A DNA stretch of 38,295 bases from a virus: positions 1-38,295 of IMG/VR virus record IMGVR_UViG_3300023174_009222, one strand, 5' to 3'. Under the pieces are notes generated by a model that saw only the letters and a program-made list of their open reading frames with translations, made no database searches and had not been told where the DNA came from. The position numbers and the translations under genes were made by a program. This document shows, one piece after another, positions 643 to 22,479 of this stretch. The number at the start of each line of letters is the position of its first letter. The first letter of the stretch is position 1.

Positions 643-1797
643 CTATTTTTTTCCAAACACAGATTCGATAATTGCATCTTCTACTGTGTTAAATTTTTTA
701 TTTTCTTTTTTACTTTCAATTGTATTACTTTCAAATATTACATTTTGTCTATCTTCTGATTCTTCTTGATAAACATCTTGTTCCATATCTTCGAAATCGT
801 CATCTTCGTCTTCATCTAGTCTGTCTAAATAATCTTCGTCATCCATAAAAGAATTGATTTCTTCATTGTCGCTGAAATCATCATCGAAACCGTCGAAATC
901 TTCATCGTTTTCTTCACTTTCGTTATATTCATCCATATCTTCGCTATCTTCTTTATCTTCATCTAGATTCTGTAAAGAACCTTTGATATTAAATAATTCC
1001 ATAGCTAGATTATATCTTTCAAAAATTTCATCGATATTTTTAGCTTTCTCAATGTAATTTTTAACTATTTTCATTTCTTTAGCAGGCAAATCGCTTACTA
1101 AGTCTTCAATAGTTTGGTCTCTTTCAGAGACTTCTTTTTCTTCGTTTAATGATTCCAATTCTGCTTTTAAGAAATCAACTTGTTTTCTTAAAGAATGTTC
1201 TGTTTCGCTTTCGTTAATCAAATAAGGCTTAATTTGATGTTTAAAACTTTCATAAATTTTAAACTCATCAGAAGCTAATAAATCTTGTCTAACTTTTTCT
1301 TCTAATGTTGGGTATAAGTCCTCTATAATTTGTGCCATTTTTTCTGAATGTTCAGTTATTACATCTTGGTTGAACATGTCAAATGCTTTAGAACTATCTT
1401 CCACAAAAAGTCCAAACGCCTGTTTTGAATCTTCTTCAAACAACTCAAAAGCCTTCTGACTATCACCTTCAAAAGCTTCAAAAGCTAATTCAGCATCTTT
1501 TTCAAATGCTTCAAAAGCTAATTCAGCATCTTTTTCGAAAAGTGCAAATGCTTTTTCTGTGTCTGATTTATAAGCTTCAAATGCCATTTCACTTTCTTTC
1601 TTAAAAAGTTCAAAAGCTTTTTCTGCCTCAGATGCCTTTATATATCCATTTTTTTCTGGACTAAAAGCTGATTCATATTTAATTTTAATTTTTTTCTCGA
1701 TTGATCGAGAATATTCCTCAAAAAAATTGTTTAGGGCTTGGGCCTGATCTTCGTTAATTTCAATATTTGAAAATACTTCTTTAAATTTTTCAAGCAT
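643..1797 (-). CDS. Prohead core scaffolding protein (gp22 position)
   Basis: 384 residues, strongly acidic and mostly helical in composition. It lies between the protease and the capsid gene, exactly where T4 has gene 22, and is longer than T4 gp22 (269 aa). Residues 57-144 are eight tandem 11-residue repeats with AF at fixed positions (for example KDAELAFEAFE twice in a row), which should form an amphipathic helix or coiled coil. Residues about 270-350 are an Asp/Glu-rich tail. A possible protease site, E-I-N-E followed by D, lies at residues 13-17; T4 gp22 is degraded by gp21 during maturation. SD GGAGGG stands 9 bases before ATG. Function is inferred from position, acidity and helical repeats rather than from clear sequence similarity. 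Confidence 0.75.
   Translation of the reverse strand: MLEKFKEVFSNIEINEDQAQALNNFFEEYSRSIEKKIKIKYESAFSPEKNGYIKASEAEKAFELFKKESEMAFEAYKSDTEKAFALFEKDAELAFEAFEKDAELAFEAFEGDSQKAFELFEEDSKQAFGLFVEDSSKAFDMFNQDVITEHSEKMAQIIEDLYPTLEEKVRQDLLASDEFKIYESFKHQIKPYLINESETEHSLRKQVDFLKAELESLNEEKEVSERDQTIEDLVSDLPAKEMKIVKNYIEKAKNIDEIFERYNLAMELFNIKGSLQNLDEDKEDSEDMDEYNESEENDEDFDGFDDDFSDNEEINSFMDDEDYLDRLDEDEDDDFEDMEQDVYQEESEDRQNVIFESNTIESKKENKKFNTVEDAIIESVFGKK
1366..1629 (-). repeat. Eight 11-residue (33-bp) coding repeats in the scaffold
   Basis: Codes for residues 57-144 of the scaffold. The units share the pattern x-[D/E]-[A/S/T]-[E/S]-x-AF-x-[L/A/M]-[F/Y]-x. Two central units are identical in protein (KDAELAFEAFE), the others diverged, so expansion is partly recent. 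An 11-residue period is that of a right-handed coiled coil or of amphipathic helices. Confidence 0.9.
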
Positions 1798-1859
1798 TTA
1801 ATATTGCCCTCCTTTTTTATATTTTAACCATTTTATTTTTTTTATATTTTTTTTTTAAA

Positions 1860-2507
1860 TTATACAAATTTTTCTATTACATTCCAAAGATTTTTTTTGT
1901 AACCTTTCGCACTATGCTTGTAATACTCAACTTCTTCATTAATAGCCGCTGATAATCTAGCGTTATAAGTGGAAGGATCACTCACAATGTCATATGTTAC
2001 AATTTTAATATCATCAGGCACAATCAACATACCATTAGTACCAGCAGTAGGTTTACTACCAAGAGCACGACTTGAAATACCAGGACAAATACCTGATTCA
2101 ACTAAGCTTTTTAAAGTTGCTCCCAATGGATTACCTTCCAATATCTCTGCTCTACCAACCACTTGATTGCCAGCCATTTTTACTTCTTTAATTACTATGC
2201 AAGATCTCTCATACATAACTTTACTAGCTCTCTGTGCCGCACCAGCAGGATCTTTCGCATCCACAGTTGGATGTTCCATTTCACCGATAATACCACCCTC
2301 ATTTTTAATTCTACCAACCATTGCCATGGTTTCTCTTTCAAGAATTGGACGAGGATAACATCTATGATTTCTGTTTTCTTTCTCAGCTTCTTGAAAAAGA
2401 CCTTCAAGAAGTGTTACACGTTTCTGTATGCCATTTACTTCATAAATGGCTTGTTTTACATCCAGATCTTTGAAAACTACTGCTTCACTTAAATATACTT
2501 GATTCAT
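1860..2507 (-). CDS. Prohead maturation protease, T4 gp21-like (peptidase S77 type)
   Basis: 215 residues, almost the length of T4 gp21 (212). The protease cuts scaffold, capsid and internal proteins in the prohead before DNA packaging. Recognisable elements are NRNHRCYPRPIL (residues 46-56), GEMEHP (75-80, with the likely catalytic His79), AQRASKVMYE (91-100) and GISSRALG (143-150, with the likely catalytic Ser145 or Ser146). This His/Ser order is that of the herpesvirus-assemblin-like fold shared by gp21. The N-terminus MNQVYLSE then A contains an L-S-E site suited to self-cleavage. ATG at 2507 follows AAGGT. The neighbours (420-aa gene upstream, scaffold and capsid downstream) agree with the role. 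Confidence 0.9.
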   Translation of the reverse strand: MNQVYLSEAVVFKDLDVKQAIYEVNGIQKRVTLLEGLFQEAEKENRNHRCYPRPILERETMAMVGRIKNEGGIIGEMEHPTVDAKDPAGAAQRASKVMYERSCIVIKEVKMAGNQVVGRAEILEGNPLGATLKSLVESGICPGISSRALGSKPTAGTNGMLIVPDDIKIVTYDIVSDPSTYNARLSAAINEEVEYYKHSAKGYKKNLWNVIEKFV

Positions 2508-2519
2508 GTTATTTTACCT

Positions 2520-3782
2520 TTATAGTGCTAAACTTGAAAAAACATCGTTTCTGCCGTATGCCGAAGGAGAAAATGCCATTCCTTTCTCTGCATCATTAAA
2601 AGATGCACTATTGTCTTTACCATATCTATCATTAAATGTTTTAATAATATTAACTATAACTGAATCATCAATCATGTCTTTTCTTTGCATATAGTCAAGA
2701 GCATTACGCATTACAAATAACATTCTGTAATTCTCAGGATCATCTCCAGCAGAAGATAATTTACTAATAGCATAATTAAGCTCTTCCATTAATTTAATTA
2801 TATCTTCTTTGTTGAAAGAATTAAAATTAACTTTCAAAAACTTAAGATTTCTATCTGGAAATCTTGGATCTTCGCTTGCTAACTGTGAAAAACCTGCTGA
2901 TCCCATAGAAAATTTACCTTCGGTGTTGGTATCAAAAGCTTCCAACATTGGATATAGTTCTTCAAGTAAACCATCAACTTTTTTATTCATTTCATTAATT
3001 GAAAAATCAAGATTATGTTTTTTCTTAATTACCAATAAATTTTTCAAGATTTTTGTTTTAATATTATTTTTATTTGCAAAGTCAATACCCTCAAATAATT
3101 CATTAGCAGGTATTTCTGTATTTTCAAAAGCTTCATTTACTTTACCAACTATTTCCATAGCTTTTGAATATTCATTTTCTATAAATGAGAAAAACTTTTT
3201 AGAGTTATTAATTTTATCTTCATAAAGAGTAGTCAAATAAACTGGATCAATCATGAATTCTTTTTTGATTTCATCATTTTCATTAAACATATAGCCATTA
3301 GCCATAAATGCTTCTTTTTCTTTTTCATATTTGCTTAATGATTCAGAAAACAAAGATAAAATTTTTGATTCTTTTTGTGTTGATTTCTCAGAAGATTCTT
3401 CAAAACGATAATTGGAACTTTTTTCTTTAGCTTTAAAACTATAAGAAAGAATTTTATTTCTTAACATTTCCATATCAATTTCTTCTGTCAAAATTTCTTT
3501 TGCGATGTCAGTTAGTTTTCCATTTTCTCCGTAAAAAGCATCAGTACTTTCTTCAATTAGTTCTTCATCAGATTCGTCATCAATAGATTCTTCACCAACT
3601 ATTTTTGCTTTTTTACCATCAAAGACAGTTACACCTTCCATAACTGTAAATGGAACTTCCCACAAAACTTCATTTTCAATATTTTTTACAATAACTGCAT
3701 CTTTAGCCGCCATTGAATAAAACTCAGCGTCTTCAAAAAATTCAATAGAATTCTTAATTGCTTCAATTTTTTTAAAATCCAT
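2520..3782 (-). CDS. Head-region protein of unknown function, 420 aa
   Basis: First gene of the local head operon, 12 bases upstream of the protease. Residues about 60-80 are an acidic stretch (DDESDEELIEES), then mostly Lys/Glu/Ser-rich helical sequence, and a C-terminal part from about 290 with SMGSAGFSQLASEDPRFPDR and a more ordered composition. No signal peptide or membrane segment. It stands where T4 has the small prohead core genes 67 and 68 but is far larger, and I see no convincing similarity to them. A prohead core, vertex or internal protein is inferred from position only. ATG at 3782 follows AAAGGTAAGAAT. Confidence 0.6.
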   Translation of the reverse strand: MDFKKIEAIKNSIEFFEDAEFYSMAAKDAVIVKNIENEVLWEVPFTVMEGVTVFDGKKAKIVGEESIDDESDEELIEESTDAFYGENGKLTDIAKEILTEEIDMEMLRNKILSYSFKAKEKSSNYRFEESSEKSTQKESKILSLFSESLSKYEKEKEAFMANGYMFNENDEIKKEFMIDPVYLTTLYEDKINNSKKFFSFIENEYSKAMEIVGKVNEAFENTEIPANELFEGIDFANKNNIKTKILKNLLVIKKKHNLDFSINEMNKKVDGLLEELYPMLEAFDTNTEGKFSMGSAGFSQLASEDPRFPDRNLKFLKVNFNSFNKEDIIKLMEELNYAISKLSSAGDDPENYRMLFVMRNALDYMQRKDMIDDSVIVNIIKTFNDRYGKDNSASFNDAEKGMAFSPSAYGRNDVFSSLAL

Positions 3783-3806
3783 ATTCTTACCTTTAATAAT
3801 TTTTTA

Positions 3807-3922: not shown

Positions 3923-4348
3923 ATGACACTCTTACAATTATATTTAGAAAAAACACAATATTCTCCTAAAAAATATTATGCTGGTCTCTCTCCAAAAGAT
4001 AAGAAAAAAAGACTAGCATGGTTCAAAAAGAAAAGAAAGAAATTTGAAAAAAATGATTACAGTGTCTATCGTGAAAAAGGTCCAGGACAAAATAAAAAAA
4101 CAAAACTTTCAAACTATACAAAATGGTCACATGAGAAATATGGCAAATGTTCTCTTAAAGAGTTGGCAGATAAGAGTGGTTTTAGTTATCAAAAATTAAA
4201 AGAGGTTTACAAAAGAGGAGTTGGAGCTTGGACGAGTGGCCATAGACCTGGTGCCAATCCGCAACAATGGGGTATGGCTCGCGTTCATGCTTTCCTTTAC
4301 AAAATTAAAAACAATAAAAAATTAAATCATGACACAGATTTAACTTAA
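3923..4348 (+). CDS. DUF5824-like small basic protein
   Basis: 141 residues, very Lys-rich, plus strand. The C-terminal half contains AWTSGHRPGA followed by WGMARVHAFLYK (about residues 102-125), a signature I associate with the DUF5824 family seen in phages and large DNA viruses; its function is not known. The middle, CSLKELADKSGFSYQKLKEVYKRG, could be a small helix-turn-helix-like unit. The N-terminus (MTLLQLYLE, then K) resembles the capsid-targeting pattern described in the findings. There is no clear Shine-Dalgarno before ATG 3923. It is divergent from the head operon and convergent with the next minus-strand gene, which ends 3 bases beyond it. Confidence 0.6.
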   Translation: MTLLQLYLEKTQYSPKKYYAGLSPKDKKKRLAWFKKKRKKFEKNDYSVYREKGPGQNKKTKLSNYTKWSHEKYGKCSLKELADKSGFSYQKLKEVYKRGVGAWTSGHRPGANPQQWGMARVHAFLYKIKNNKKLNHDTDLT

Positions 4349-4350
4349 AA

Positions 4351-4707
4351 TTATTTTGGTAAAAAAAGCACGTTAGTATTGTTACTTTTTTTAATTAAAT
4401 TTTTAATTTTTTCTTTTGTTTTTTTAGCTTTTTGTTCTGTGCCATAATAAATTGTATTTGCTTTATTAATTATTTCTATAACTTGTTCTTCAATATCTTC
4501 TTTAGTTAATTCTTTTTTATTGTGTTTATTTAAATTAACTTTTGTGTTTAATAAATCATGTAACGATTTTTTATCAATCCATATAAAACTATATTCAGAA
4601 AGTAAATCTTTATATTCAAGAGCCTTTTTATTTTTTTCTGATATTTTTTCTTTTTTGCCTTCATTAAGGATTTGAATCTTGTTTAAATAATCTTTGAATT
4701 TATTCAT
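4351..4707 (-). CDS. Unknown small protein, 118 aa, possible capsid cargo
   Basis: Lys/Asn/Glu-rich and helical, without membrane segments or recognised motifs. The N-terminus MNKFKDYLNKIQILNE, then G, resembles the T4 internal-protein targeting peptide (M-x2-aromatic-x2-aromatic, then a site ending in E). Its start overlaps the stop of the preceding 93-aa gene (ATGA-type, 4704-4707), so the two are translationally coupled. The function is unknown. Confidence 0.55.
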   Translation of the reverse strand: MNKFKDYLNKIQILNEGKKEKISEKNKKALEYKDLLSEYSFIWIDKKSLHDLLNTKVNLNKHNKKELTKEDIEEQVIEIINKANTIYYGTEQKAKKTKEKIKNLIKKSNNTNVLFLPK

Positions 4708-4985
4708 TTTTTCTTTTTCTTGCCTTTTTTCTTGGCTTCAGCTTGTTTTTTAAAAAAAAGTTTTTTTGATACATTATATGCAATAGCTATAGCTCTGCCC
4801 ATTGGCCATTCTGGATTTTTTTTCATTAAACTTTCTTTAACTGCAATAAATTTGTCTCTAAAATTTTTAGGGTTAAAATTGTATTTTTTTGCAAAATTAG
4901 TGGCACCTTTCCACAATTTACTGCCTTCTTCAAATTCATTGTAGATTTTTAATTCTTCCATATAGTATTCAAATTTATTTTTCAT
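4704..4985 (-). CDS. Unknown small basic protein, 93 aa, possible capsid cargo
   Basis: The N-terminus MKNKFEYYMEELKIYNE, then F, has the aromatic-rich pattern and a Y-N-E site. The centre, LKKNPEWPMGRAIAIAYNV-like (residues about 54-72), is compact and conserved-looking, and the tail ends in a run of lysines (KKKGKKKKK), suggesting DNA binding. The ATG at 4985 follows an AAAGAG sequence. It lies 1 base after the HAD gene and overlaps the 118-aa gene, forming a three-gene unit. The function is not recognised. Confidence 0.6.
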   Translation of the reverse strand: MKNKFEYYMEELKIYNEFEEGSKLWKGATNFAKKYNFNPKNFRDKFIAVKESLMKKNPEWPMGRAIAIAYNVSKKLFFKKQAEAKKKGKKKKK

Positions 4986-4986
4986 A

Positions 4987-5655
4987 TTATTTTCTCTTTA
5001 TTTTTTTAATATACAATTCTAATTTTTTAGACAGATTTAACATATTATCTTTTACCAAGTATGACATACCGCCTGCTTGTTTAAACTCATCACAGTTTGA
5101 TTTGGTATCATCTATCAGAATCGTATTTTTCATTGCATAATTCTTTTTTAATGTTCTGCCTGCAACAAAGTTATAGCGATCAAAATGGATATCGATTTCG
5201 TTTTTATATTTACTCAACCAATTTATTTTTTGTTGTTCTACTTTATGGTGATTTAATGGATTACCTGTGGAACCTAAAATCTCTATTCTCACCTCTGGAT
5301 ATTTTTGTTTTATTTCTTTTAGCGATTTACTTAATATGGCAACTTGTGACATCACTTCAAGTTTTTCAAAATATTTATGTTCAATAAATATTTCCCAATA
5401 ACTGTTTTTTATTTCTTGTCTTTGTTGAGGTGAAACCAAGGTTTCATTTTTATGAAAAATATTTTCTAATATTTGTATTTTTTCTTTTTTAGATAATGTA
5501 CTTAAACTGTTTTTACCAGAAAAAATTTTATCAAGATTTTTATTAATAAAATCTTTTTGTCCCATTTTTAGATCTGCTAAAACTCCATCCATATCTATAT
5601 AAATAACTATTGGAGAAGTCACTGACTCCATGTAATGTTTATAAAAATAACTCAT
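4987..5655 (-). CDS. HAD-family phosphatase, 5'(3')-deoxyribonucleotidase-like
   Basis: 222 residues. HAD motif I is DMDGVLAD at residues 21-28, with Asp21 the expected nucleophile and Asp23 the acid/base. A motif II-like Ser/Thr lies in ILGSTGNP, Lys residues follow for motif III, and LIDDTKSNCDEF carries the motif IV Asp pair. The DMDGVLAD signature and about 200-aa length fit the NT5C-type deoxyribonucleotidases, which dephosphorylate nucleoside monophosphates; a polynucleotide phosphatase role is possible. The first ten residues (MSYFYKHYME) precede the usual start of the fold and resemble the N-terminus of the neighbouring 93-aa protein. No clear Shine-Dalgarno is seen, and the second Met (residue 9) is an alternative start. 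It is divergent from the 1155-aa gene across a 51-base AT-rich gap. Confidence 0.75.
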   Translation of the reverse strand: MSYFYKHYMESVTSPIVIYIDMDGVLADLKMGQKDFINKNLDKIFSGKNSLSTLSKKEKIQILENIFHKNETLVSPQQRQEIKNSYWEIFIEHKYFEKLEVMSQVAILSKSLKEIKQKYPEVRIEILGSTGNPLNHHKVEQQKINWLSKYKNEIDIHFDRYNFVAGRTLKKNYAMKNTILIDDTKSNCDEFKQAGGMSYLVKDNMLNLSKKLELYIKKIKRK

Positions 5656-5706: not shown

Positions 5707-8700
5707 ATGGCATTTATAAAAAAAATTAAAGAATTATCATTTATTAATGAAATAACCTCTAAACAAGAAATTGGAGATATTTCTCCGATTATAAATAATT
5801 TAGCAGAAATAAAAAAACTTCTTGACACTGAAAAAAGAAAATTTATTTTTAATAGTAAAGAAATAGATTTGGATAAAATATCTGAAGGTGATTTTACTAA
5901 TTTACTTAAAAATATTGAATTTAAAAAAGCTCTTAGAAGTCATTTTAAAAAGAATTCTTATTTTAGAAATATTATTTTAGGCTCTCAAAACGATGAACAT
6001 GGTAAAAGATTATTTTTAAAAGAATTCTTAAAAGAGAAAAGTTTAATAACTAGACTGTTTAAAAAATTGAATAATGGAGTTTTTAAAAGAACAATAATTT
6101 ATGATATAAGTGGACGTATAAATAAAAATATCATGAATTTAACTAAAGATAATGAAAAAGTAAAAAAAATCACAAAAATATTGATTGAAAATGGATATAA
6201 AGATGTTATTTTTGAAATAGGCAGTTGTTATGAAGGAAAAACTCTTACTTCAATAAATGATGCATTTGAAAAAATAATATCTTCAAAAGATAGTGAAAAA
6301 GATAAAGATTTAATAAAAGAAATAAAAGATTTTATTGGTGAACTTGATACTGTTTATGATGATAACTATAAAATAATTTTTACATTAGAAACACGAAAAG
6401 TTGCTTCTCAAAGTACTCGCGTTAATTGGCGTTCATGTATGAATCTGGAGAACGGTGTCAGAAGAGAAATGGTAGGCTCAAGTATTTCATCTGGTTTGGC
6501 TGCTGTTTATATAACTAAGGTTGGCGATGAACTTAAAATTGATTATCCATTAGCAAGAATTTTAATTAAGCCTATGATTTATGAAGCAAAAACAGGTTCT
6601 AATTTTAATATGAAAAATATAACAGATGAAGATATTTATTATTATTTAGATAAAACATATACATCAACAAATTCAATTCGCACAAATATAAACGTGAGTA
6701 TTTTAGATAAATTTGAGAAAAAAGTAAATGAAATAATAGAAAATGTAAATAAACAAAAAGTAGAAAAATTAGCAGAAAGAGAAAATAAAACAAAACTCAT
6801 ATATAACTTACAAAGAAAAGGCGAAGACAGAAAACAAGAAAGATATTATGCTGATACCGTTAGTAAAGTTGAAAAAGATTTAACTGCTCAAATTTTATTA
6901 GAAAAATTAAAAAACAAAAAAGACGTTAACAGAGAAGAAGTTTTTGAATATTTTAAAAAAAATCATAATGATGAAATTATTAAATTATTGATGATTAATA
7001 ACAAAGATGATATTGTAAAAGAACTGTTGGATAAAAAATATATATTACCACCAGAAGTTGATGTTTATGAATTAGGCAGAATTCCAGATATAGACATTAA
7101 TAAACTTACTCTTAATGCTAGAGATAATAAGATAAAGGCAACAAATAAAAGTAAACAATTAAATGTTAATGAGTTAATATATAAACCCGTGGAAGGCGGT
7201 AAGAATAACTTAGAAGAAATCGACAAAGACACCACAGTTAGTGTTGATAACTTTACTTATTTGTTTAACAAAAAAGAAGGTGGTAAATTTAAAATAACTA
7301 ATAATTTAAAATATAAAGGTGAAGAAATAAAACAAACATTAGAAATAGGCAATAAAAAAATTGATATCAATAAATATGAACAAAGGGGAGAAGTAAAAAT
7401 ACATTCAATAGAAAGTCAAGCTTCAGATGAAAAACTTAAAAGAATAAAAGTAACTTTTTCTGATTTTGATAAAAATTTTAAATATACATTAACAGACGCA
7501 GATATTTCTTTTACTAGAAAAACGAACGACGAAAATAAAAGTTTTTTTTTAGTTATGAATAAAAATTCAATCATCAACAGTTTTCCTGAAAATTATTATT
7601 TAACTTTAAATTTTTATCACTTTGAACAAATTAAATATTTTTATAAAAATATTTTTAATATTTTAATAAAAGCTCAGAATGAGTATATAGACAATATATA
7701 TAAAAAAACAAATAAAAGTACTGAAATGTCAAAAACAATTATGGCACTTGACACTTTACTTTTAGTGGAAAATGAAAATAGAGATTTTGTTAAAGAAACA
7801 TTAGGCATAAATATATTTGATAAACAAATAATGGCTACTCTTTTGAAAAAAACAAAAGATATTTTACCTTTAAATCTTTTTATAATAGCTGGAGAAAGTT
7901 TCTTAAAAAATTCAAGTATGGGTTCTGAAAATTATATTGAACAATTTGAAAAAATAGAGGATATTTGTAAAGCTTATAAAATTAATATTAATTATGTCAA
8001 CGACATAAATGAAAAACCATCACATTGTCAAAATATAAATGAGTTTATTAGTGATACTTTTTTTAATCATAATATAAAAAAAGATAATTTTGATTTAAAA
8101 AAAATGAGTTATATTGTTTTAAATGACACTGGTTACATTAGTACAGCATATATATTAAATCAAACATTTTTTAAACTAGATAATATAAATAATGTTTCTA
8201 AAATTAAAATAATAAAATTAGATAAAATTATGTTTTTAGAAACAAATGTAAATGAGTTAATTATAGATAAAAAAACAATCATTAAAAATGATAATGTGTT
8301 AATTAAAGGAAATGGAAGTATTAAAAATTTAATTATTACAGATAAAAAAATTAATAAATACGAAATATTAACACCAATAATGGAAATAAAAGTAAATAAT
8401 TGTGAAGGTGATACTTTAGATTTTTCGCCTTCAAAGGTTGAAAATATTAGCTTTAAAAATGTTAAGATTAATAATCTCTTAGTCGATAAAAAAGATTATA
8501 ATTTATATATTGATAATTGTAATCAATTGCCTGAAAAAATAGAATGCAAAAGATTAGAAATAGAAAATTCAAATATAAAACTTCCAGAAAAAATGATAAT
8601 AGAAAATTTATATGTTAAAAATAGTGATGTCACAAATTATTCTAATATAGATGTTAAAGCTTGTTTTTCTAGATTTAAAAAAGGATTAACTATTTCTAAC

Positions 8701-10892: not shown

Positions 10893-11663
10893 TTAAGAAA
10901 GTTTTTTAATTAACTCTGAAGAATTTTTTTGTGCCAATTTTATTTCTTTTTGAGTGGTTATTGGCATTTTTGGAAAATCTTTGAGATTAAAAATTTGATT
11001 TACGTTTGCCAAATTACTTTTAATCTGTTCTATTTTTTGATTTAAAGAATTTATGTTTTTAGAAAATCTAGCTCTCTTTGCTTTCATAGCAGTCTTTTTT
11101 AAATCTTTCATTCCTTTGGAATCTTTTTTGTTTTTTAAATCTTTTTGCACAATTTTAAAATTTTCTTTTAAACTGTTATGCATTGAAAAAAGATTTGATG
11201 GGCTTAAATTATCATATTCTTTTGAAGTTAAAAAACCATTTAATTTTTTATATTTTTCTTCTTTAGAATATTTACTTGGTTTAGTGTCATCTATTTTATT
11301 TAAAAACGAAATTGCACTAAGCATAGTTGATATTTTTTCTTTTTTTTCTATTATCTTAATAGACAAATTATCTATTTGTTCCGTTAATTTCACCAAAGAA
11401 GTTTCATCTGGCTTTTTAATTATTTGCTTTTCATCAACTTTGTCTTTGTTATCTTTTAATATTTTTTTTTCTCCATCTTCAGAAGGAGCAGAAGCACCTT
11501 CTTCTGGTGGTGGCGCATCAGTTGATGCATCACCTGGAGGTGGATCTTCTGATGGCGGTTCTTCTGGTGGAGTTTCAGTTGGTGAAGATGCTTCTGGCGC
11601 CGCTTCATTAGCTTCATAAATTATTTTTTCAGCAACTTCGTAATAAAAACGAAATCTATTCAT
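10893..11663 (-). CDS. Unknown protein, 256 aa, Pro/Glu-rich N-terminal half
   Basis: Residues about 18-66 are low-complexity Pro/Glu/Ala/Ser sequence (PPEEPPSEDPPPGDAS), followed by a Lys-rich helical region likely to form coiled coils (about 90-256). The first residues, MNRFRFYYEVAEKIIYE, then A, are aromatic-rich and end in a candidate protease site. There is no membrane segment and no recognised domain. A TATAAATA box lies 19 bases upstream. It is followed by the M23 peptidase and preceded by a 95-aa gene. An internal capsid protein is possible but inferred. Confidence 0.6.
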   Translation of the reverse strand: MNRFRFYYEVAEKIIYEANEAAPEASSPTETPPEEPPSEDPPPGDASTDAPPPEEGASAPSEDGEKKILKDNKDKVDEKQIIKKPDETSLVKLTEQIDNLSIKIIEKKEKISTMLSAISFLNKIDDTKPSKYSKEEKYKKLNGFLTSKEYDNLSPSNLFSMHNSLKENFKIVQKDLKNKKDSKGMKDLKKTAMKAKRARFSKNINSLNQKIEQIKSNLANVNQIFNLKDFPKMPITTQKEIKLAQKNSSELIKKLS

Positions 11664-11673: not shown

Positions 11674-11961
11674 TTACTCTTTATTTATATTATTACTTAA
11701 TTCACTAATAATTTTTTCTGCTTTTTTTATTTCATCTTCAATCCATGGTTCAATTTCGCAACCCTGTGATTCAAACAATGTAAGTAAATTTTTTGTACTT
11801 TTAGAAATATTACGTAATTTATTTTTTACGTTTTCATCGATTTGAATTTCTTTTTCGCTTCTCTCATACAAAGGATTTCCAGTTATTGCATGCATTGATG
11901 GATTAGATAATTCCATAATTACTTTTTCATTAAAAATATCGTTTATCCATTTATCTTTCAT
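11674..11961 (-). CDS. Unknown small protein, 95 aa
   Basis: Short acidic helical protein with no recognised domain. The N-terminus MKDKWINDIFNE, then K, has the [I/L]-x-N-E site seen in several neighbours. SD AGAGG (11976-11972) stands 10 bases before ATG 11961, and a TATAAATA box directly precedes it. It lies 10 bases before the 256-aa gene, probably in the same transcript. Confidence 0.6.
   Translation of the reverse strand: MKDKWINDIFNEKVIMELSNPSMHAITGNPLYERSEKEIQIDENVKNKLRNISKSTKNLLTLFESQGCEIEPWIEDEIKKAEKIISELSNNINKE
11682..11689 (-). promoter_or_regulatory. TATAAATA, T4-type late promoter box
   Basis: Exact match to the T4 late promoter octamer on the minus strand, 18 bases upstream of the 256-aa gene start. 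It overlaps the last codons of the 95-aa gene, so part of the match may be coincidental coding sequence. It is followed by AAGAG, as in the second copy at 11978-11985. Confidence 0.4.
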
Positions 11962-14394: not shown

Positions 14395-17300
14395 TTACTT
14401 TTTAAATTTGTTTAATTTATTTTCAAATTTAAAATACTCATTAAACAAAAATTCTTCATCTTTGCTAGTGTATTGATAAGAAGAAAGTGTAGATGTAGGG
14501 GGTGTTTTAACGATAATAGCATCTTTGAATCCATTTGATTTTGCTTCTTCTAAAAGTTTAATAATAATGCTGTGATCAGATTTATTATTAAAATCCATTT
14601 TCAAAATGTTCATAGCTTTTTTCATATCACTGTCAAAAATGATTCTGTTTGGGTTTGTGGAATTATTAAAAACACTATCATATACATCTTTTAACTGATT
14701 TTTTTGTTCATCTGTTAATGTTTTTATTTTTTCTAAAGTTTCATTAACATCATTTGGATGAAAAGTATTTTCAACTGATGGCTCATTATTGACTGGCGGC
14801 TTTACAGGTTGATCTGGAGCTGGCGTTGGCGCTGGTTGATCTGGAACTGGTGTTGGCGCTGGTGCTGGTTGATCTGGAGCAACAGGCTTTGGAATAGGTG
14901 TATCTGTTACATCGCTAGGAATCGGAGCTGGTGGTTTAATAGGAGCATTAGGATCAATTTCACTGCCATCTTTTAATGATTGTAACATTTTGCCAGTCCA
15001 TGTATTATCTGGTACAGTTCCTGCTTTTGTTGCTATGAAATCATATCTTTCTTCAAATAATTTTGCAATATCTTTTGCTTTATCTGGATTAGGAATATAA
15101 GCACCATCAGGATTAATTTTATAAGTAGCTTTTATTATTTGTTTTTGAAACTCATCTCCGGCAGATTTAAAGAAAGGATCATTAGGATTTTTAATACTTT
15201 CCATAACTTTTCCAATAAAAACATCATATTTATCTTTAGCTATTCCCATACTTTCAGCTTTTGCTATTAAAGCTTTTTGTATATATGACGTATCAAAATC
15301 TTTAAGTGCTTCGGTTATTTGTTCTCCAGCAAATTTATTTAACATTGTTGGATTTTCTGTTATGGTATCCATAAACATTTTTTTAAGTTCTGGATACTGA
15401 TCTAGTTTTTCTGCGTTATCAATATATGTATTTATAAAATCTTCATCATTGGCTTGTCTTATGGATTTTAATATAGCCATATATTGTTGTTTAGGCGTTA
15501 ATCCTTCAAGATTTAATTGATCATATTTATCTTTTAAAATTGATTTTAAAATTTTAGTGCCTTCTGTGTCAGCATCAGTCATACCAATTTTATCTTTAAA
15601 CCAAGAAATGACTCCTTTCTCTTGTGCTTTCTCTCCAAAAAGTTTTGCAAATTTATCATAGTATTCATTTTCGGCTAATTTATTTTTTAATGTTTCAGCA
15701 TAAATATCCTTCATGCTGCTTTCTTCCATAACACTGCCAAATTTTTCATTAAAAAGATTAATATCATTTGGATCAGAATCTTTAAGATGATCAATGATAC
15801 CTTTTTGCATTTGACTTCCAAAAGGAGAATTTAATAGATCTTTTAATTCACTAGAGGATAAATTTTTAGTCATCTCTGCAAATTCTTGCGTGCTTAGATT
15901 ATTAACATAATTTCCTAAATCAAAATCAGGGTTTTGATCAAGTACTTCACTGAATGATTTTACTCCTAGTTTTTGTAAGACTAATTTATTCATTAGATCT
16001 TCATTATCTGTAACAAAATCCATTTTTTTCAGAATAACACTATTTAGACTTGGATCCATTTCATCTAACATACCACTATCAACATCAGCTGTATCACTTA
16101 AGCCTATTTTTGACAATAACTTATCAAAAGTTCCGCCTAAAGAACTATTAATAGTTGCACCAGAATTACTAAATAAACTATTAAAAAATTGTGTTGTTTG
16201 TGCATAAGCTTGACCATTTGCTAATTGATCTATCACTGTTTCCACTTTTCCAATAATAGCAGTTGGATCTAATGGAATATTTGATAATCCACCTGTAAAA
16301 AAATGATAAGAAAAAGCTATTGCTGAAATCACAGCAAACAGTATACTGCCTAAAACTGTTTCATCTTGTAAAAATGGAATATTAGCTTTAATGGCGTCTT
16401 CTGCAGTTTTTGTTTTTTCATCTTTTTCTTCTTGTGTTTCTTCTGCTTTTGGTTTTTCTTCTGCCATTTCTGCAGAATCAGTTTTTTTTATTATTTCATC
16501 AATTTCAGTGTCATTTAAAGGTTCTAAATTAAATCTTGTTAATAAAACATCATCTATAGCAGCGTCTATAGCTGATTGTTTTTTTGAACTTTTATAATTT
16601 TCTTTTTTGCTTGTTGCTGTTTTAACATCAGCAATAGTTTTAGTTAAATAATTTTTTAAATCGTCTGATATTTTACCTTTTTTAGTGGAATTTGATTCTC
16701 TACTAAAAAAATTACCAACTGAACCTTTCATGCTTAATTTAAAATTATCACCTTCTTGATTAACAATGACAGTTGCTGGATCTGAATTTATTTGTGCAAA
16801 ACCATCATCAACTGCTAAAGCTTCAAAAAAAGTACTTACAGCACCATTACTTTTAACATCAAATAATTTTTTTACATATACATTTGCAGTGTATTGTTTT
16901 GAATTTGGATTAGATTCATTGTTTGCTTTTTTTAATTCTATATATCCTAAAATATCACCTTTTGGTTTTTCTTTTTGAATTTTTAAATTATCAATGGTTG
17001 ATTTATCATCTATAATTGCATATAATTGATCAACATTTTTTGTTTTATCTTCTGGTTTAGTTTCTTCTTTCGTATCTTTGTTTTCAGTTTTTTCTTTAGT
17101 ATCTTCTTTAGTATCTTCTGTTTTTTCAGTATCTTTTTCTTTATCTTCTGTTTTATTTTCACCTGTTTTTTCATCTTTTGTGTCTTTGTTTTCAGGCTCT
17201 GCATTTTGTACATTTAATTTTGTAGTTGTTAGTTTATCAATTAACTGCGTTAATTGTTCATTTTTTAAATTAAGAAAATTTCCATTTGAGTCTGCATTAA

Positions 17301-18624
17301 ATTCTAAACCTAGTTTCTCTAATTCTTGTTTTTTTACTTTTTTATTATTATTTTTTATGGAAATTATATTATTAGCTAAATTTATGTTTAGTTTAATTTT
17401 ATCATCTATTTTATAAGTAACACTTACTGCTTGCATTTTAACTTTTTGAGTTGAAATAAGTTTTTTATTAATATTTTTTATTAAACCAGAACTTGAACCC
17501 TCAAAGTATAAATTATTTTCTTCTAAAAAAACTGATTTCTTAAAGGTGGTATTATGCAAATTTTCAGCAAAAACATATTTTAAATTTTCAGTAGCATTAA
17601 GAAAAGAATCAGCTATTTCTGGAGTTATTTTTTCTCCAAAATAAACAGACTCACTGACTTGCGCACTTGTGCCTGCACTAGCAACTTGTGTATTTTTTTC
17701 TTTTACACTTTTTATAAAAGTGATAGTTGCTTTTACAGTATCTATGCATGATTTTAATAATAGACCACTAAAAAATTGTACTATAAAAGCTATTGGATTG
17801 ACAGCTATACTGAGAACCACTTTTGCGCCAAGTAATAATAATTTTAAAACTAAATTAACACCTGGTTGCTTGAAGAAATTACCAGTTTTTTCAAATGCGC
17901 TTTTTACTCCACCAGTTATTTTGTCCTTGATTGGATCAGCAATCACAGTTCTAAAATATTTAAATGCATTTACTGGATCTTTTTCCCCACCTTTTTTATA
18001 AGAATAATAAATTAAAAGTATTAATACTCCAATAGCCCAAAACATTGGATTAGTGGCAGCAATAGTTACTCCTGCTGTGGCTGCTATAATACCGATGACT
18101 TTCATAACTCTTTTATTGAAAATCATTTTCATAATTTTGCCAGGAAGTTTTGACCAACCTTCTGCAAAATTTTTGGTTTTTTCTTTTACAGTATTCCAAA
18201 AACCTTCGTCATATATAATTTTTTCTTGTCTTTTTTCTAGTCTTCTTTCTTTTCTTTTTATCTGCTCAAGTTCTTCTAAGAGAAGATTTTTTTTGCCAAA
18301 ATTTTTTGTTGTTTTTATTTTTTCTTGAATTTTAATTTTAGAGTATTTTATTTTACCTTTTTTAACTTTATAAGAAGATGTAAAATCTTCGGCAGTGATT
18401 ATTTTATTTTTTTTAAAATAAGCGTCAAGTTGTTTTTTTGTTTTTTTTCCATAAATTTGAGAAAAAAATGTTTTATCCATTTCATACAATTCAACTTCAT
18501 CTTTTTTTAAAAGTGAAATATTATTTTCTTTAATAAAATTATTTGTTTGTATGTAATCAAGATCAACACTGTTTGTTGAATAATAACCTTCTCTTTGGTT
18601 TAGGTATTTATATAAATTACTCAT
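14395..18624 (-). CDS. Giant multi-membrane-segment protein, 1409 aa, function unknown
   Basis: Hydrophobic segments at about 174-208 (one or two helices), 255-292 and 757-780 (VLGSILFAVISAIAFSYHFF). A Lys/Glu/Thr-rich low-complexity linker covers about 470-530 (repeats of KEDTKEKTE type), and a Pro/Ala linker about 1225-1285 (PAPTPVPDQPAP). Between them, residues 830-1200 are a long helical domain; a region near 325-460 resembles the domain shared with the next genes upstream. The start codon overlaps the previous gene's stop (18621-18624), and AAGGA precedes it. Length and segments could suit an injected internal protein or a tape-measure-like protein, but it lies among head genes and neither is shown. 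No catalytic motif was recognised. Confidence 0.75.
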   Translation of the reverse strand: MSNLYKYLNQREGYYSTNSVDLDYIQTNNFIKENNISLLKKDEVELYEMDKTFFSQIYGKKTKKQLDAYFKKNKIITAEDFTSSYKVKKGKIKYSKIKIQEKIKTTKNFGKKNLLLEELEQIKRKERRLEKRQEKIIYDEGFWNTVKEKTKNFAEGWSKLPGKIMKMIFNKRVMKVIGIIAATAGVTIAATNPMFWAIGVLILLIYYSYKKGGEKDPVNAFKYFRTVIADPIKDKITGGVKSAFEKTGNFFKQPGVNLVLKLLLLGAKVVLSIAVNPIAFIVQFFSGLLLKSCIDTVKATITFIKSVKEKNTQVASAGTSAQVSESVYFGEKITPEIADSFLNATENLKYVFAENLHNTTFKKSVFLEENNLYFEGSSSGLIKNINKKLISTQKVKMQAVSVTYKIDDKIKLNINLANNIISIKNNNKKVKKQELEKLGLEFNADSNGNFLNLKNEQLTQLIDKLTTTKLNVQNAEPENKDTKDEKTGENKTEDKEKDTEKTEDTKEDTKEKTENKDTKEETKPEDKTKNVDQLYAIIDDKSTIDNLKIQKEKPKGDILGYIELKKANNESNPNSKQYTANVYVKKLFDVKSNGAVSTFFEALAVDDGFAQINSDPATVIVNQEGDNFKLSMKGSVGNFFSRESNSTKKGKISDDLKNYLTKTIADVKTATSKKENYKSSKKQSAIDAAIDDVLLTRFNLEPLNDTEIDEIIKKTDSAEMAEEKPKAEETQEEKDEKTKTAEDAIKANIPFLQDETVLGSILFAVISAIAFSYHFFTGGLSNIPLDPTAIIGKVETVIDQLANGQAYAQTTQFFNSLFSNSGATINSSLGGTFDKLLSKIGLSDTADVDSGMLDEMDPSLNSVILKKMDFVTDNEDLMNKLVLQKLGVKSFSEVLDQNPDFDLGNYVNNLSTQEFAEMTKNLSSSELKDLLNSPFGSQMQKGIIDHLKDSDPNDINLFNEKFGSVMEESSMKDIYAETLKNKLAENEYYDKFAKLFGEKAQEKGVISWFKDKIGMTDADTEGTKILKSILKDKYDQLNLEGLTPKQQYMAILKSIRQANDEDFINTYIDNAEKLDQYPELKKMFMDTITENPTMLNKFAGEQITEALKDFDTSYIQKALIAKAESMGIAKDKYDVFIGKVMESIKNPNDPFFKSAGDEFQKQIIKATYKINPDGAYIPNPDKAKDIAKLFEERYDFIATKAGTVPDNTWTGKMLQSLKDGSEIDPNAPIKPPAPIPSDVTDTPIPKPVAPDQPAPAPTPVPDQPAPTPAPDQPVKPPVNNEPSVENTFHPNDVNETLEKIKTLTDEQKNQLKDVYDSVFNNSTNPNRIIFDSDMKKAMNILKMDFNNKSDHSIIIKLLEEAKSNGFKDAIIVKTPPTSTLSSYQYTSKDEEFLFNEYFKFENKLNKFKK

Positions 18625-19568
18625 CGGTAATTCCTTAGGTATTTTTCTAAAAATAAATCTACGTTTTTTATTTCTTTATAAAATTCTTTGTCGTTTGTTG
18701 ACTCATAAAAATATTTTAAATCTGCTATTTCATCTTTTATTACTTTCCAGACTGAAAGCTTATTAGCAACTGATATATTTATCTCCAAAATTAAATCAAA
18801 AATAGCGTCAATTATTTCAAATTGTTTTTCTTCTTCTGGTGTTTTATCTTTTTTCTTTTTTAATTCTGTTTGAATCATACTTAAAGTTTTATTTTTAGAT
18901 ATTTTCAATTTCATAAATAATAAGTTTCTAACATCATCATTTAATAAATAATTAATTAAAATTTTTAAATTTTCTTTTTGAGAATCTTCCAAATCGATTT
19001 TAGATTTATTTGTTTCTAATGTACTAATTATTTTTTTAAACGATTCATCTTCTTTAATGTTAAATTTTTGTTTTATTTCATCTAATTTTGTAGGTACATT
19101 TTGTATACTGTTATCAGGAGTGTTATTAGTATTTGTATTTTTTGCGTCTGTTTGCGTTGTGTCTTGTGCAGGTTGAGTAGCTGTTTGTGTATTTATTGTT
19201 TTAAAATATTCTGATAACTTTTTTTGTAAATCTTTGTATTTACCGCTTGGCCATTTTTTAGCAACTATTTTAGAATTTCCTTTTGGATGATTTACAGTTT
19301 TGTCTGTAAATTTAATATCTTCTCCAAAAATTTTTTTTATTTTCTCATTATAATCATCAATTAATTTATTAGATTTATTTAAAAGATAAATAACTCCTTG
19401 ATTAATGTCTAAATATAAATAAAAAAAACTATTATTTTCTTCAAATATTTGATATCTGAGTACAGAAACTAAAAAATTTTTTTTTCCTAATAATTCTATG
19501 TTCTGTGAAACAGATATACCAGTTGCATTAGGAAATTTAACTTCTTCGTTTAAAACATGTAAATCCAT
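18621..19568 (-). CDS. Unknown protein, 315 aa
   Basis: Two parts joined by a Gln/Thr/Asn-rich linker (about 133-158). The N-terminal part (1-130), with FFYLYLDINQGVIYLLNKS and KKWPSGKYKDLQKKL, looks related to domains in the 586-aa and 101-aa neighbours. The C-terminal part is helical and Lys/Glu/Asp-rich. It begins MDLHVLNE, then E, a candidate cleavage site. SD GAGG lies 6 bases before ATG and follows an 11-bp hairpin. Its stop overlaps the start of the 1409-aa gene, so the two are coupled. Confidence 0.65.
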   Translation of the reverse strand: MDLHVLNEEVKFPNATGISVSQNIELLGKKNFLVSVLRYQIFEENNSFFYLYLDINQGVIYLLNKSNKLIDDYNEKIKKIFGEDIKFTDKTVNHPKGNSKIVAKKWPSGKYKDLQKKLSEYFKTINTQTATQPAQDTTQTDAKNTNTNNTPDNSIQNVPTKLDEIKQKFNIKEDESFKKIISTLETNKSKIDLEDSQKENLKILINYLLNDDVRNLLFMKLKISKNKTLSMIQTELKKKKDKTPEEEKQFEIIDAIFDLILEINISVANKLSVWKVIKDEIADLKYFYESTNDKEFYKEIKNVDLFLEKYLRNYR

Positions 19569-19579
19569 TTTACCTCAAT

Positions 19580-19606: not shown

Positions 19607-19616
19607 TTTTTTAATC

Positions 19617-21377
19617 TTACATATGTGGTGCTACTTTAGCTAATGCTGCAGCGCCATTATATATAGTTTGCGTTGCGTTACCACTAAAAGCTATTGCACC
19701 ACTATTATTCATTATATTATAAACAGCTTTTGGCCCTGGTTTAATATTTTGTATAGCGGTAAGAATAGTAGCTTGACCTTTTTCTAATGCCGCTAATTGT
19801 GCCCCTTGAGCCGCTAATTGAGAAGACATACTCATCCAAAATGTCCAAACGTGAAAAGCTATAAATCCTAACGCAAGTCCAATTAAAACTCCAGATATTA
19901 TTGCTGCACCATTACGAGACATCCAGTTCCAAAATCCCATATTTGGTTCATTAACTTTTTTTGGATTATAATCTTCATCATCATTTATATAAATATTGTT
20001 TTTATTTCCTGAAACATGTAGTTTGTTTTTACCAACACGATAACCATCACCATCTCCACCGTCTCCGCCTCGACCATTACCACCACCATCATCATATCCG
20101 ATTTCTTCATCATCTTCCGTGTCTCTTTCGATTCGACCACGTCTACCACTGTAACTTCCGCTACCGCCGTCTCCTCCACCACCTTTACGACTATCGCTAT
20201 CTTTGCTACTGCTATCGCCACTTTTACTACTATCACTACCAACTTTTCCTGTTTCAATTGCGGCAAATATTTTTTTCCATTCGCCTTTTTTCCATTTATA
20301 ATGATTGGAAGATATGGTCTTTCCTTTACCAAAAACAATATCTAGAAATTCTTGTAGTTCATCATCATCGAAATCGCCAGATTTATCAAAACCATAAATA
20401 GAATTATCAACTATGTCAACACCTATGTTAAGTTTTTCGCCATTTAATTTAAATCCGTATCCAACTCTTGTTTGTCCAGCTGGTAATGATATAGATGAAG
20501 CATGAGGTATTTGTGATGCTGTTAATTCATTGTAGAAATAAACATCTTCATTATAAACTTCAAAATCATTATTTATAAAATCTCTAAATTCAAAGAAAAG
20601 ACCACCATAATTAATATTTCCATCAAATGAATTATTAAATAATTGTTTTCTTTCTTCCTTGTTTTTTATTTTATCTTCTTCATTTTTTTTTATGCTATTG
20701 TCTATTTTATTTAATTTTTCTTCTGAATCTTTAACTCCATTTCTTATAGTCTTTAAAATAGCTAAAGTTGTTTTGCCTTTAGGTAAAAATTCTCCAGTTA
20801 TAAGAGCTTTAATTAAAGAAAAAACCGTTAAAAATTTAAAAATAACATTAACAACAATTGCTATTAACATTCTAAACCATTTCTTTTTCATCATATCGTG
20901 ATATAATTTTATTACTGGTTGTGCCATTTTTAAAATAAAAGATTTTAATTTAAGCATCATTCCTTTAGAAATATTTTTAACAACTGCCAAAGCTTTTTTA
21001 GCACCAGAACTAATAGACTTTGGAATATTTTTTATGCCTTGCCATGCTTTACTAGCTGAATCTTTTGTGCCTTGCCATGCTTTACTAGCTGAATCTTTTG
21101 TGCTTTGCCATGCTTTACCAACTGAATCTTTTATTTTATCAAGACCCCATAACTCTAAAAATATTTCTGGATTTTTAGCTAAAAGTACTTGTTCTTCCAA
21201 CGTTAAACTATTTACATCTATGTTTTTACTTTCTATTAAATAATTTACATATTCAGCGTATTCGTCTCTTGACTCAAGGATAAGAGTTCCTTTTCCTTCA
21301 GAAGCCATTTGCATGTGATGTTTTTTTATCTTGGTGTCTTTAATTCTGCCTAGATATGATTCAAATGTATAATTCAT
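19617..21377 (-). CDS. Membrane protein with 11-residue repeats and Gly-rich linker, 586 aa
   Basis: Order of parts: a polar N-terminus; three 11-residue repeats of the type DSASKAWQGTK (84-116); an amphipathic Lys-rich stretch; one or two hydrophobic segments (about 167-193); a soluble domain (about 255-375) with LNIGVDIVDNSIYGFDKS and YKWKKGEWKKIF; a Gly/Asp/Arg-rich linker (about 385-450); a C-terminal membrane segment (about 490-517); then an Ala/Gln-rich coil. The repeat plus basic-helix plus membrane layout parallels the N-terminus of the 1409-aa protein. The function is unknown; a membrane-inserting virion protein is a reasonable guess. It lies in the block after the portal. Confidence 0.7.
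   Translation of the reverse strand: MNYTFESYLGRIKDTKIKKHHMQMASEGKGTLILESRDEYAEYVNYLIESKNIDVNSLTLEEQVLLAKNPEIFLELWGLDKIKDSVGKAWQSTKDSASKAWQGTKDSASKAWQGIKNIPKSISSGAKKALAVVKNISKGMMLKLKSFILKMAQPVIKLYHDMMKKKWFRMLIAIVVNVIFKFLTVFSLIKALITGEFLPKGKTTLAILKTIRNGVKDSEEKLNKIDNSIKKNEEDKIKNKEERKQLFNNSFDGNINYGGLFFEFRDFINNDFEVYNEDVYFYNELTASQIPHASSISLPAGQTRVGYGFKLNGEKLNIGVDIVDNSIYGFDKSGDFDDDELQEFLDIVFGKGKTISSNHYKWKKGEWKKIFAAIETGKVGSDSSKSGDSSSKDSDSRKGGGGDGGSGSYSGRRGRIERDTEDDEEIGYDDGGGNGRGGDGGDGDGYRVGKNKLHVSGNKNNIYINDDEDYNPKKVNEPNMGFWNWMSRNGAAIISGVLIGLALGFIAFHVWTFWMSMSSQLAAQGAQLAALEKGQATILTAIQNIKPGPKAVYNIMNNSGAIAFSGNATQTIYNGAAALAKVAPHM
21030..21128 (-). repeat. Three tandem 33-bp coding repeats
   Basis: Encodes DSVGKAWQSTK, DSASKAWQGTK and DSASKAWQGIK. 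The DNA of adjacent units is nearly identical, so the repeat arose by recent tandem duplication. Confidence 0.95.
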
Positions 21378-21391
21378 TTTTTTCCTCTTTT

Positions 21392-22090
21392 TTAAATCTT
21401 GTATGTTTTTTCAATTTCTGTTTTTAGTGATGTTTTAAATTTATCAATATCATTTACAGTAATCGAATTATGTGGTGCGTTTATGTAAAAATGCTTTAAA
21501 TCAAAAATTTCCGATGTTGTTAAAGTTAGTGTATAATATGATCCAATCATATTTTGTTCTTCTTTATTATGAAAAGTGTTAATTATATCCCCAATATGTT
21601 TCTTATCGTCTGGTGTTATAATCGGATTATCCTTGTATGATTTTAAATTATACAGCCAATTAAGACCTATAATAATATGTAAACTACTAATTGCTGTTTT
21701 AGCTTCAGATTTTTTTCCTGTAGGCGTAGTAAATTTAGCCACTTCATCAGATAAAACGTTATAATCTGTATAATTTTTTTTATTGTATGTAATATTAACG
21801 CCACTATACCCAATACTTTTAGATTCTTTTATAACTGATTTTATTAATACTTCAATATCAGCATTATTTAGTGACTTAATGTCTTTAAGTGCAGGAGGTG
21901 GTGTACCTGTCGCTTTGCCTTTATGAGCAACTCCATCTAAATAAATTTTTATTCCATTTTTGGTCGTAACTGTTGGAGCAATTTTTGCTTCCATGAAAAT
22001 TTCTTCATTTAAAGAATCGCCGAGTTTAAGTTCTTTTAATATATTAATATCATATATTGACTCGTTTAAAAAATTTCTATAATTATTCAT
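21392..22090 (-). CDS. Unknown protein, 232 aa, possible capsid cargo
   Basis: The N-terminus MNNYRNFLNE, then S, is the closest match in the window to the T4 internal-protein targeting peptide (MKTYQEFIAE, then A). A second site of the same kind, SLNE, lies at residues about 26-29. The rest is a soluble alpha/beta composition (GIKIYLDGVAHKGKATG; ISSLHIIIGLNWLYNL) with no recognised family. AGGAAAAAGAA precedes the ATG. It is followed by the 586-aa gene after 14 bases. Confidence 0.65.
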   Translation of the reverse strand: MNNYRNFLNESIYDINILKELKLGDSLNEEIFMEAKIAPTVTTKNGIKIYLDGVAHKGKATGTPPPALKDIKSLNNADIEVLIKSVIKESKSIGYSGVNITYNKKNYTDYNVLSDEVAKFTTPTGKKSEAKTAISSLHIIIGLNWLYNLKSYKDNPIITPDDKKHIGDIINTFHNKEEQNMIGSYYTLTLTTSEIFDLKHFYINAPHNSITVNDIDKFKTSLKTEIEKTYKI

Positions 22091-22129
22091 TTCTTTTTCC
22101 TATAAAAAGTATTCAAATTTAATTATTAT

Positions 22130-22144
22130 ATTTTTTATAAAAAC
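22130..22144 (-). promoter_or_regulatory. TATAAAAA box, possible late promoter
   Basis: The minus strand reads GTTTTTATAAAAAAT, identical to 3821-3807, and lies 40 bases before the 232-aa gene. It would give that gene and the genes downstream their own late transcript after the portal unit. Support is limited by the AT-rich background. Confidence 0.35.
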
Positions 22145-22173
22145 AAATAATAATTGAATTATTTTTTATTTTT

Positions 22174-22479
22174 TTAAGAAAAAATGTTATAGAATTTGAT
22201 GAATTTTTTAATCATATCCCATTCACCTTCTTTCCAATAGTACTCGCCCTTTTCATTAAGAACGATTTCTTTGTTTGGCATGAAAACGTCAATCACTTTT
22301 GTGTTCTTTAAGCGATTGTCATTTTTATAACCATTTTTACCAAAGAAGAAAGTGATTTTATTTTTTTCAGAGTCAACTAACAATTCACTTATTTTTTCAC
22401 CATCCGAGATACGGTAAAGAATAATAGTTTTTACACATGGACCACAAAGTTCACCATCAAATCTTTCATTTAAAATCAT
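22174..22479 (-). CDS. Unknown small protein, 101 aa
   Basis: Start set at ATG 22479, with GGAT about 8 bases upstream and 4 bases after the portal stop; a TTG at 22491 in the same frame would add four residues. The protein begins MILNE, then R. Residues about 36-50 and YYWKEGEWDMIKKFI near the end resemble the domain seen in the 586-aa and 315-aa neighbours, with W-x2-G-E-W shared with the former. No catalytic motif is recognised. It is probably co-translated with the portal. Confidence 0.6.
   Translation of the reverse strand: MILNERFDGELCGPCVKTIILYRISDGEKISELLVDSEKNKITFFFGKNGYKNDNRLKNTKVIDVFMPNKEIVLNEKGEYYWKEGEWDMIKKFIKFYNIFS

Follow-up and report, generated by a model that had tools for sequence, protein, structure and literature searches.

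Candidate T4-type capsid targeting signals at the N-termini of unrelated proteins in a jumbo phage fragment

In bacteriophage T4 the internal proteins IPI, IPII and IPIII carry an N-terminal signal of 10-19 residues, of which the fourth, seventh and eighth are aromatic or hydrophobic (Mullaney and Black 1996; PMC9026906); the bearers are otherwise unrelated, and the gp21 protease cuts after the Glu of an (L/I)-x-E site (PMC9026906). Mutagenesis of IPIII showed targeting to depend on residues 4 and 7, and processing on residues 8 and 10; carriage of a variety of proteins by T4-like phages through capsid targeting sequences was already proposed (PMC9026906). Here we describe N-termini that resemble this signal, with a predicted cut, in IMGVR_UViG_3300023174_009222, a 38.3-kb viral fragment of 27% G+C (the window, by which the whole stretch is meant), which comes from a jumbo phage distantly related to T4. 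On the sequence evidence these N-termini are very probably T4-type capsid targeting sequences with gp21-type cleavage, and their bearers would be cargo loaded in the head and injected.

T4 has few such internal proteins, and several of these are small and basic, whereas here about ten candidate genes stand between portal and protease, several of them large or enzymatic. The predicted site is often shifted to E14-E17, which is also seen in T4 IPI (ITE19). The ejection proteins of phiKZ and SPN3US offer a second likeness (PMC5694885): these are also giant phages with many head-carried proteins cleaved after Glu, which for our phage is deduced from sequence, and their diverged paralogues gp53 and gp54 have identical 15-residue N-termini. 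However, their propeptides are mostly longer than 100 residues, with A-x-E/S-x-E sites and an S80 protease, in contrast to the S77 gp21 protease and the signals of 8-17 residues in the window, and assignment to this propeptide class was rejected on these two differences. In phage P1 the N-terminal 30 residues of DarB are enough for a reporter to be loaded into the capsid, albeit in a different head system without separate scaffold (PMC9024508). Finally, virion-packaged NAD/ADP-ribose effectors and polyvalent proteins are likewise enzymes, with a predicted place in the head and a predicted early action. Head-packaged enzymes were therefore already inferred by other means, the evidence being their gene context or their fusion with head proteins (PMC9503650) instead of an N-terminal signal. 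What is new here is the lineage, how numerous and how large the cargo proteins are, a relative with a genome-wide signal, and a recurrent tagged deoxyribonucleotidase.

Head genes and protease

The head block of the window was compared with a relative found via its portal, a 290,274-nt IMG/VR record of 25.6% G+C which took no part in defining the signal. The features are the following (a slash marks a predicted or aligned cleavage position; aa, amino acids):
1-630, minus strand: major capsid protein (gp23), incomplete in the window
616..630, minus: start of the capsid protein, MIFNE/A (relative MEIFSE/S), role uncertain
451..462, minus: cleavage-type site of the capsid protein, LIAE60/ER, aligned with T4 gp23 FLTE65/AE
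1750..1797, minus: N-terminus MLEKFKEVFSNIEINE of the scaffold (643-1797); VEINEEQ is conserved in the relative's scaffold
2484..2507, minus: N-terminus MNQVYLSE/AVV of the gp21-like protease (1860-2507), aligned with T4 gp21 LLIE-9; relative MESIYLSEAVV
22484-24568, minus: T4-like portal, gp20-type (Pfam Portal_T4, E 9e-53)
24565-26373, minus: large terminase

Identity between relative and window is 55% for the portal, 56% for the protease, 52% for gp23 and 47% for the terminase. The first part of gp23 is encoded (Pfam Gp23, E 1e-8), and portal and terminase (22484..26373, minus) form one edge of the block. About 18 genes separate portal and protease, an interval that in T4 holds only genes 67 and 68. 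The scaffold was assigned by its position between protease and capsid protein, as gp22 has, and by homology to the relative, without a family match. A T4 baseplate protein, a DnaB-type helicase and ThyX are encoded as well. The terminase reaches a similarity of at most about 29% to annotated phages, and the protease as query against viral contigs found zero relatives.

The gp21-like protease named in the preliminary description is indeed present: it matches Pfam Peptidase_S77 with E 1e-19, while its S80 match (E 0.007) lies below that family's cut-off, and it keeps the S77 His motif (GEMEHP; T4 GELNHP) and Ser motif (GISSRALGS; T4 GVSSRGLGS). The gp23 maturation site could be aligned in four phages (T4 FLTE/A, window LIAE/E, relative LISE/S, Flavobacterium phage immuto IVSE/A), and LLIE-9 of T4 gp21, with which the protease N-terminus aligns, was named as a possible self-cleavage site (PMC9026906). 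Since both the gp23 site and the protease N-terminus align with T4 sites, the predicted hydrophobic-x-Glu specificity of the window protease is well supported.

N-terminal signals in the window and in the relative

The candidate signals, and the similar or doubtful N-termini, are listed below:
22061..22090, minus: MNNYRNFLNE of a 232-aa protein (21392-22090); Y4, F7, L8 and E10, with the spacing of T4 MKTYQEFIAE
5626..5655, minus: MSYFYKHYME/S of a HAD/NT5C 5'-deoxyribonucleotidase (4987-5655, 222 aa), preceding the domain start at residue 17
4660..4707, minus: MNKFKDYLNKIQILNE of a 118-aa protein (4351-4707); F4, Y7, L8 and site LNE16, compare MKTFKDYLNKIENFNE of the relative
4935..4985, minus: MKNKFEYYMEELKIYNE of a 93-aa basic protein (4704-4985); a weak homologue in the relative (102 aa, phmmer E 0.001) has the signal MSKFRDYLEKI
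11613..11663, minus: MNRFRFYYEVAEKIIYE/A of a 256-aa protein (10893-11663)
5707..5751, plus: MAFIKKIKELSFINE of a 1155-aa protein (5707-9174); a 189-aa protein of the relative starts near-identically, MKFLKKLKDLIYINE
11926..11961, minus: MKDKWINDIFNE of a 95-aa protein (11674-11961)
3923..3949, plus: signal-like MTLLQLYLE of a 141-aa DUF5824 protein (3923-4348); L4, Y7, L8, E9
18595..18624, minus: signal-like MSNLYKYLNQ of a 1409-aa protein (14395-18624); anchor present, Q at the cleavage position
21351..21377, minus: signal-like MNYTFESYL of a 586-aa protein (19617-21377); anchor only, no Glu
19545..19568, minus: MDLHVLNE of a 315-aa protein (18621-19568), uncertain member
22465..22479, minus: MILNE of a 101-aa protein (22174-22479), or MDDIMILNE from TTG at 22491, uncertain member
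34983..35126, minus: MSGFSDYLKK at residues 1-10 and FSGYMKKYKSLINE at 35-48 of a 252-aa Cys-rich protein (34368-35126), outside the head block

Every N-terminus quoted in the preliminary description was found at its gene; the list had omitted the protease and the 252-aa protein and, as signals, the 1409-, 586- and 141-aa proteins. No convincing function was obtained from PHROGs, Pfam or NCBIfam for the 1155-, 1409-, 586-, 256-, 232-, 118-, 95- and 93-aa proteins. In the 141-aa protein the DUF5824 domain begins at residue 15, and its homologue in the relative starts MKPLFEAINNIFVE/D; this domain stands alone in the window (3923-4348, plus), whereas Pelagibacter phage HTVC008M has it at the C-terminus of a protein annotated as a cytidylyltransferase.

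As had been anticipated, the motif [ILFYV][LIFY]NE exceeds shuffled controls at these N-termini: within residues 2-20 it occurs in 8 of the 21 head-block proteins, where 0.20 (composition), 0.46 (interior segments) or 0.49 (local shuffle) are expected and none of 3000 shuffles reached 8. An equal frequency outside the head genes, which would have spoken against the proposal, was not seen, since the other block holds 1 in 18, as expected. With the capsid protein, the scaffold and the 315- and 101-aa proteins removed the motif is still found in 5/17 (0.40 expected, 0/20,000 shuffles), and its density of 19.0 per 1000 residues at head-block N-termini is 17-fold that of the interiors (1.12). Four of the 21 head-block proteins have the T4-type anchor at 4/7/8 (expected about 0.1), or 7-8/21 against 0.5-1.2 when shifted forms are included. 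The T4 key positions 4/7 and 8/10, as in the starts of IPI, II and III read here (MKTFKEF / MKTYQEFIAE), are complete in the 232-aa protein, and 4/7/8 in several others as well as in 12 proteins of the relative.

These 12, among the 416 proteins predicted in the relative with our own simple gene caller, start M-x-x-F-x-x-Y-[LIVM], where 0.35 are expected and 1000 shuffles never gave more than 4; most of them then continue [IL]-[ILV]-[QE]-E. The HAD nucleotidase of the relative starts MSIFKKYLDTILES, and further anchored starts are MSLFNKYLTIIQEA, MSQFNKYLNIVQEA, MSLFKKYISIIQEG, MKNFYDYLEIIQEE, MKNFHDYLEIIQEK, MKTFKDYLNKIENFNES and MKDFKHYLSLINES. Another of the 12 is a 1446-aa protein starting MNNFTYYIERT, which can be set beside the 1409-aa protein of the window. 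Behind residue 18 the 12 proteins have no mutual BLAST matches. Their genes are spread across the genome, therefore the signal is not tied to the head region. The same applies to the 252-aa protein of the window: its homologue in the relative starts MKGKSFQDYLSVIKEE and lies directly beside the helicase gene, the homologous core begins at residue 79 (26 in the relative), and both copies open with an F-x-x-Y-[LM] element. Thus the head-region set of the preliminary description stands as an enrichment in the head block, but the putative signal bearers are not confined to it.

In the relative IIQE, IVQE and ILE come directly after the anchor, and the Glu is often at 14, not 10. The putative signal consists of two parts, either contiguous (E10) or apart (E14-E17); in T4 IPI, MKTFKEFTSTTTPVSTITE/A, anchor and cut site are apart as in MNKFKDYLNKIQILNE of the window. 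For core binding, cutting, presence in the particle, injection and the role of each cargo we infer the following course. A short amphipathic stretch, hydrophobic or aromatic at about 4, 7 and 8 (M-x-x-F-x-x-Y-L), would bind the scaffold core during prohead formation, and the protein fused behind it would thereby be built into the head. The gp21-like protease would cut after the Glu of hydrophobic-x-Glu, right after the anchor (E8-E12) or later (E14-E17), releasing the cargo from the core; DNA would be packaged around the cargo, which would be ejected with it at infection. About ten window proteins would travel in this way, including the NT5C-type 5'-deoxyribonucleotidase, the very large 1155-aa protein and probably the 1409-aa protein.

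Nucleotidases with and without an N-terminal extension

The 222-aa HAD protein matches Pfam NT5C from residue 17 (E 5e-6), and the D-M-D-G, K and D-D columns are invariant in the NT5C alignment, so that the HAD features (DxDG, downstream K, DD) are all found. Its Foldseek matches are HAD enzymes, including the human mitochondrial 5'(3')-deoxyribonucleotidase. In the AlphaFold model the mean predicted local distance difference test score (pLDDT) is 50 at residues 1-10, which lie outside the confident HAD fold, and 83-97 elsewhere.

From 80 viral loci 50 unique N-termini before the I-Y-x-D-M-D-G core were collected; four nucleotidases of annotated phages failed the core pattern and were excluded from the counts. 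The lengths are bimodal: 31/50 have at most 9 residues, i.e. no extension, and 19/50 have 10 or more, the start codons being mostly forced by in-frame stops. [ILVFYM]xE was found in all 19 extensions (shuffles: mean 7.5, maximum 14); these include related sequences, about ten groups by eye, which puts the true significance below the raw count, though it is still clear. Some extensions nearly copy the T4 signal (MRDYKEFYRE/AKGDLPR, MKLYKDYYRE/AKGDLPR, MKSFMHHITE/APKGE), and the homologues of HTVC008M (LVQE/Q) and immuto (LLLE/E) have tagged-looking extensions. The same enzyme with and without a tag is what an address tag predicts, and this add-on behaviour lends indirect support to the idea that the signal would suffice to load a fused protein into the head. 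Gene neighbourhood was rejected as the cause of the difference, both forms being present in the same HTVC008M-like gene cluster. In another family, KNTH, a Glu stands directly or almost directly before the core (MITFKNYLTE/QKNTH, MKSFKQHITE/ASTEGKNLH, MYNDLLVE/DKNTH).

A wider proposal can be put forward tentatively, at somewhat less than even chances: the tags might be a general readable address across T4-like phages, gained and lost by enzymes in a modular way, and might mark recurrent head-carried 5'-deoxyribonucleotidases which are delivered at infection and whose targets, before phage gene expression, would perhaps be the nucleotide pool of the host or nucleotide-based defence signals. 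No report of a head-carried phage deoxyribonucleotidase was met in the literature searched, which left out most subscription papers; a deoxyribonucleotidase is here added as a candidate for delivery in the head. Should the tag prove recognisable in sequence data, genomes alone would suffice to list which proteins uncultured T4-like and jumbo phages inject, and there would be a direct route to early-acting phage effectors among proteins without other annotation. If true, natural short loading tags would also be supplied for T4-type delivery particles.

Competing explanations and neighbouring genes

Several observations weigh against capsid targeting as the common explanation. The motif was picked from the same 21 proteins that give the enrichment, therefore independent data were sought. 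Motif-agnostic pairwise similarity of N-termini is raised in both blocks and does not set the head block apart, and was dropped as support. The exact N-E motif is enriched weakly in the relative (9/416 against 3.6-5.3 expected), hence N-E, a local variant rather than the signal's core, was given up as a general marker; the best marker of the putative signal is F4/Y7/L8. The strict anchor is not enriched in T4-like terminase loci (3/327 proteins, 1.5 expected) and was abandoned as a universal marker, from which it follows that the dialect of the signal is lineage-specific. Head-block genes without the signal exist: those of the 371-, 250- and 197-aa proteins and of the protein at 13402-14349, while a 187-aa protein has a secretion-type start. 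Finally, many marine phages have NT5C without extension in the same genomic surroundings.

Immuto suggests that dialects differ from lineage to lineage: three of its proteins, with bodies lacking significant BLASTP similarity, start F-[DN]-L-[KR]-x-F-L-x-E-N-K-L-T. A second set of common starts, of MKKSxL type, was noticed in immuto (17295-40469) on several proteins near terminase and portal.

The strongest rival is targeting without cleavage, or a mixed set, in which the N-termini dock onto scaffold or inner shell and only some are cut. We regard it as rather unlikely, although the expected Glu is replaced by Q in the 1409-aa protein and an acidic residue is lacking there in the 586-aa protein, so these two are possibly targeted yet uncut, and Asp at position 10 of T4 IPIII stops processing, not targeting (PMC9026906); most members, however, have the hydrophobic-x-Glu site, and in the relative it directly follows the anchor. 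It is improbable that the N-termini are parts of folded domains, or ordinary assembly contacts of structural proteins, with no removable signal. For some members the idea has merit: the 101-aa protein and residues 312-371 of the 586-aa protein form a common domain (phmmer E 1e-5) with the NE itself outside, the start of the 315-aa protein shows a weak match to an internal stretch of the 586-aa protein (DFEVYNEDVYF; BLASTP E 0.04-0.07), and VEINEEQ of the scaffold is conserved homologous sequence. Because of these links the 315- and 101-aa proteins, whose N-termini may reflect domain homology instead of a signal, were kept as uncertain; the domain homology suspected earlier for the 586-, 315- and 101-aa proteins is thus a real doubt for the latter two, whereas the 586-aa protein was added on its anchor only. 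Against this rival, the bearers in the relative have no detectable similarity behind the signal, and the NT5C signal stands before the Pfam domain, outside the confident model, and is missing altogether in some homologues. A composition artefact, by which 27% G+C DNA rich in N, E, I, L, F and Y codons yields chance hydrophobic-x-Glu strings, is very improbable: [ILFYVM]xE alone is not significantly enriched (15 against 12.2 by local shuffle), the motif-agnostic comparison fails to separate the blocks and the helicase carries YLNE by chance, but composition-preserving shuffles never match the counts of the specific motif or of the relative's anchor, the other block lacks enrichment, and 19/19 nucleotidase extensions hold the site. 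The YLNE of the helicase, earlier offered as a counter-example, was rejected as a signal: it lies in the part homologous to the relative's helicase, where it is aligned with WIIEEE.

The T4-type signal is the best supported explanation, because the 4/7/8 positions recur, a gp21 homologue keeps its His and Ser motifs, an independent relative has the anchor, and NT5C proteins have add-ons with the site; moreover, a common short N-terminus on unrelated proteins is found in one genome with S77 protease, scaffold, portal and gp23. The large capsid-carried set including enzymes, claimed in the preliminary description, is supported by sequence evidence in so far as the signal is T4-like, while N-E was not an essential feature.

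Among the neighbouring genes, the protein at 13402-14349 (minus, 315 aa) has no match in Pfam, PHROG or NCBIfam, but viral contigs contain at least 216 relatives of it, of which the best 80 are 57-64% identical; it represents a widespread, unnamed phage family. The gene at 9190-10305 (plus) encodes an AurF/R2-like di-iron oxidase with 92% protein and 81% DNA identity to a gene of a Leptospiraceae metagenome-assembled genome, where the counterpart has bacterial neighbours (TetR-like regulator, SDR-type, sterol-desaturase-like). Its G+C content is 35% against 27% for the phage, and it seems to have been acquired recently from the host, which would suggest that this host is one of the Leptospiraceae. 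Immediately upstream of the protease lies the gene of a 420-aa protein (2520-3782, minus) without a family match, which has the same place in the relative, with the start IE[FV]FEDA[ES]F kept, and is probably a head core protein.

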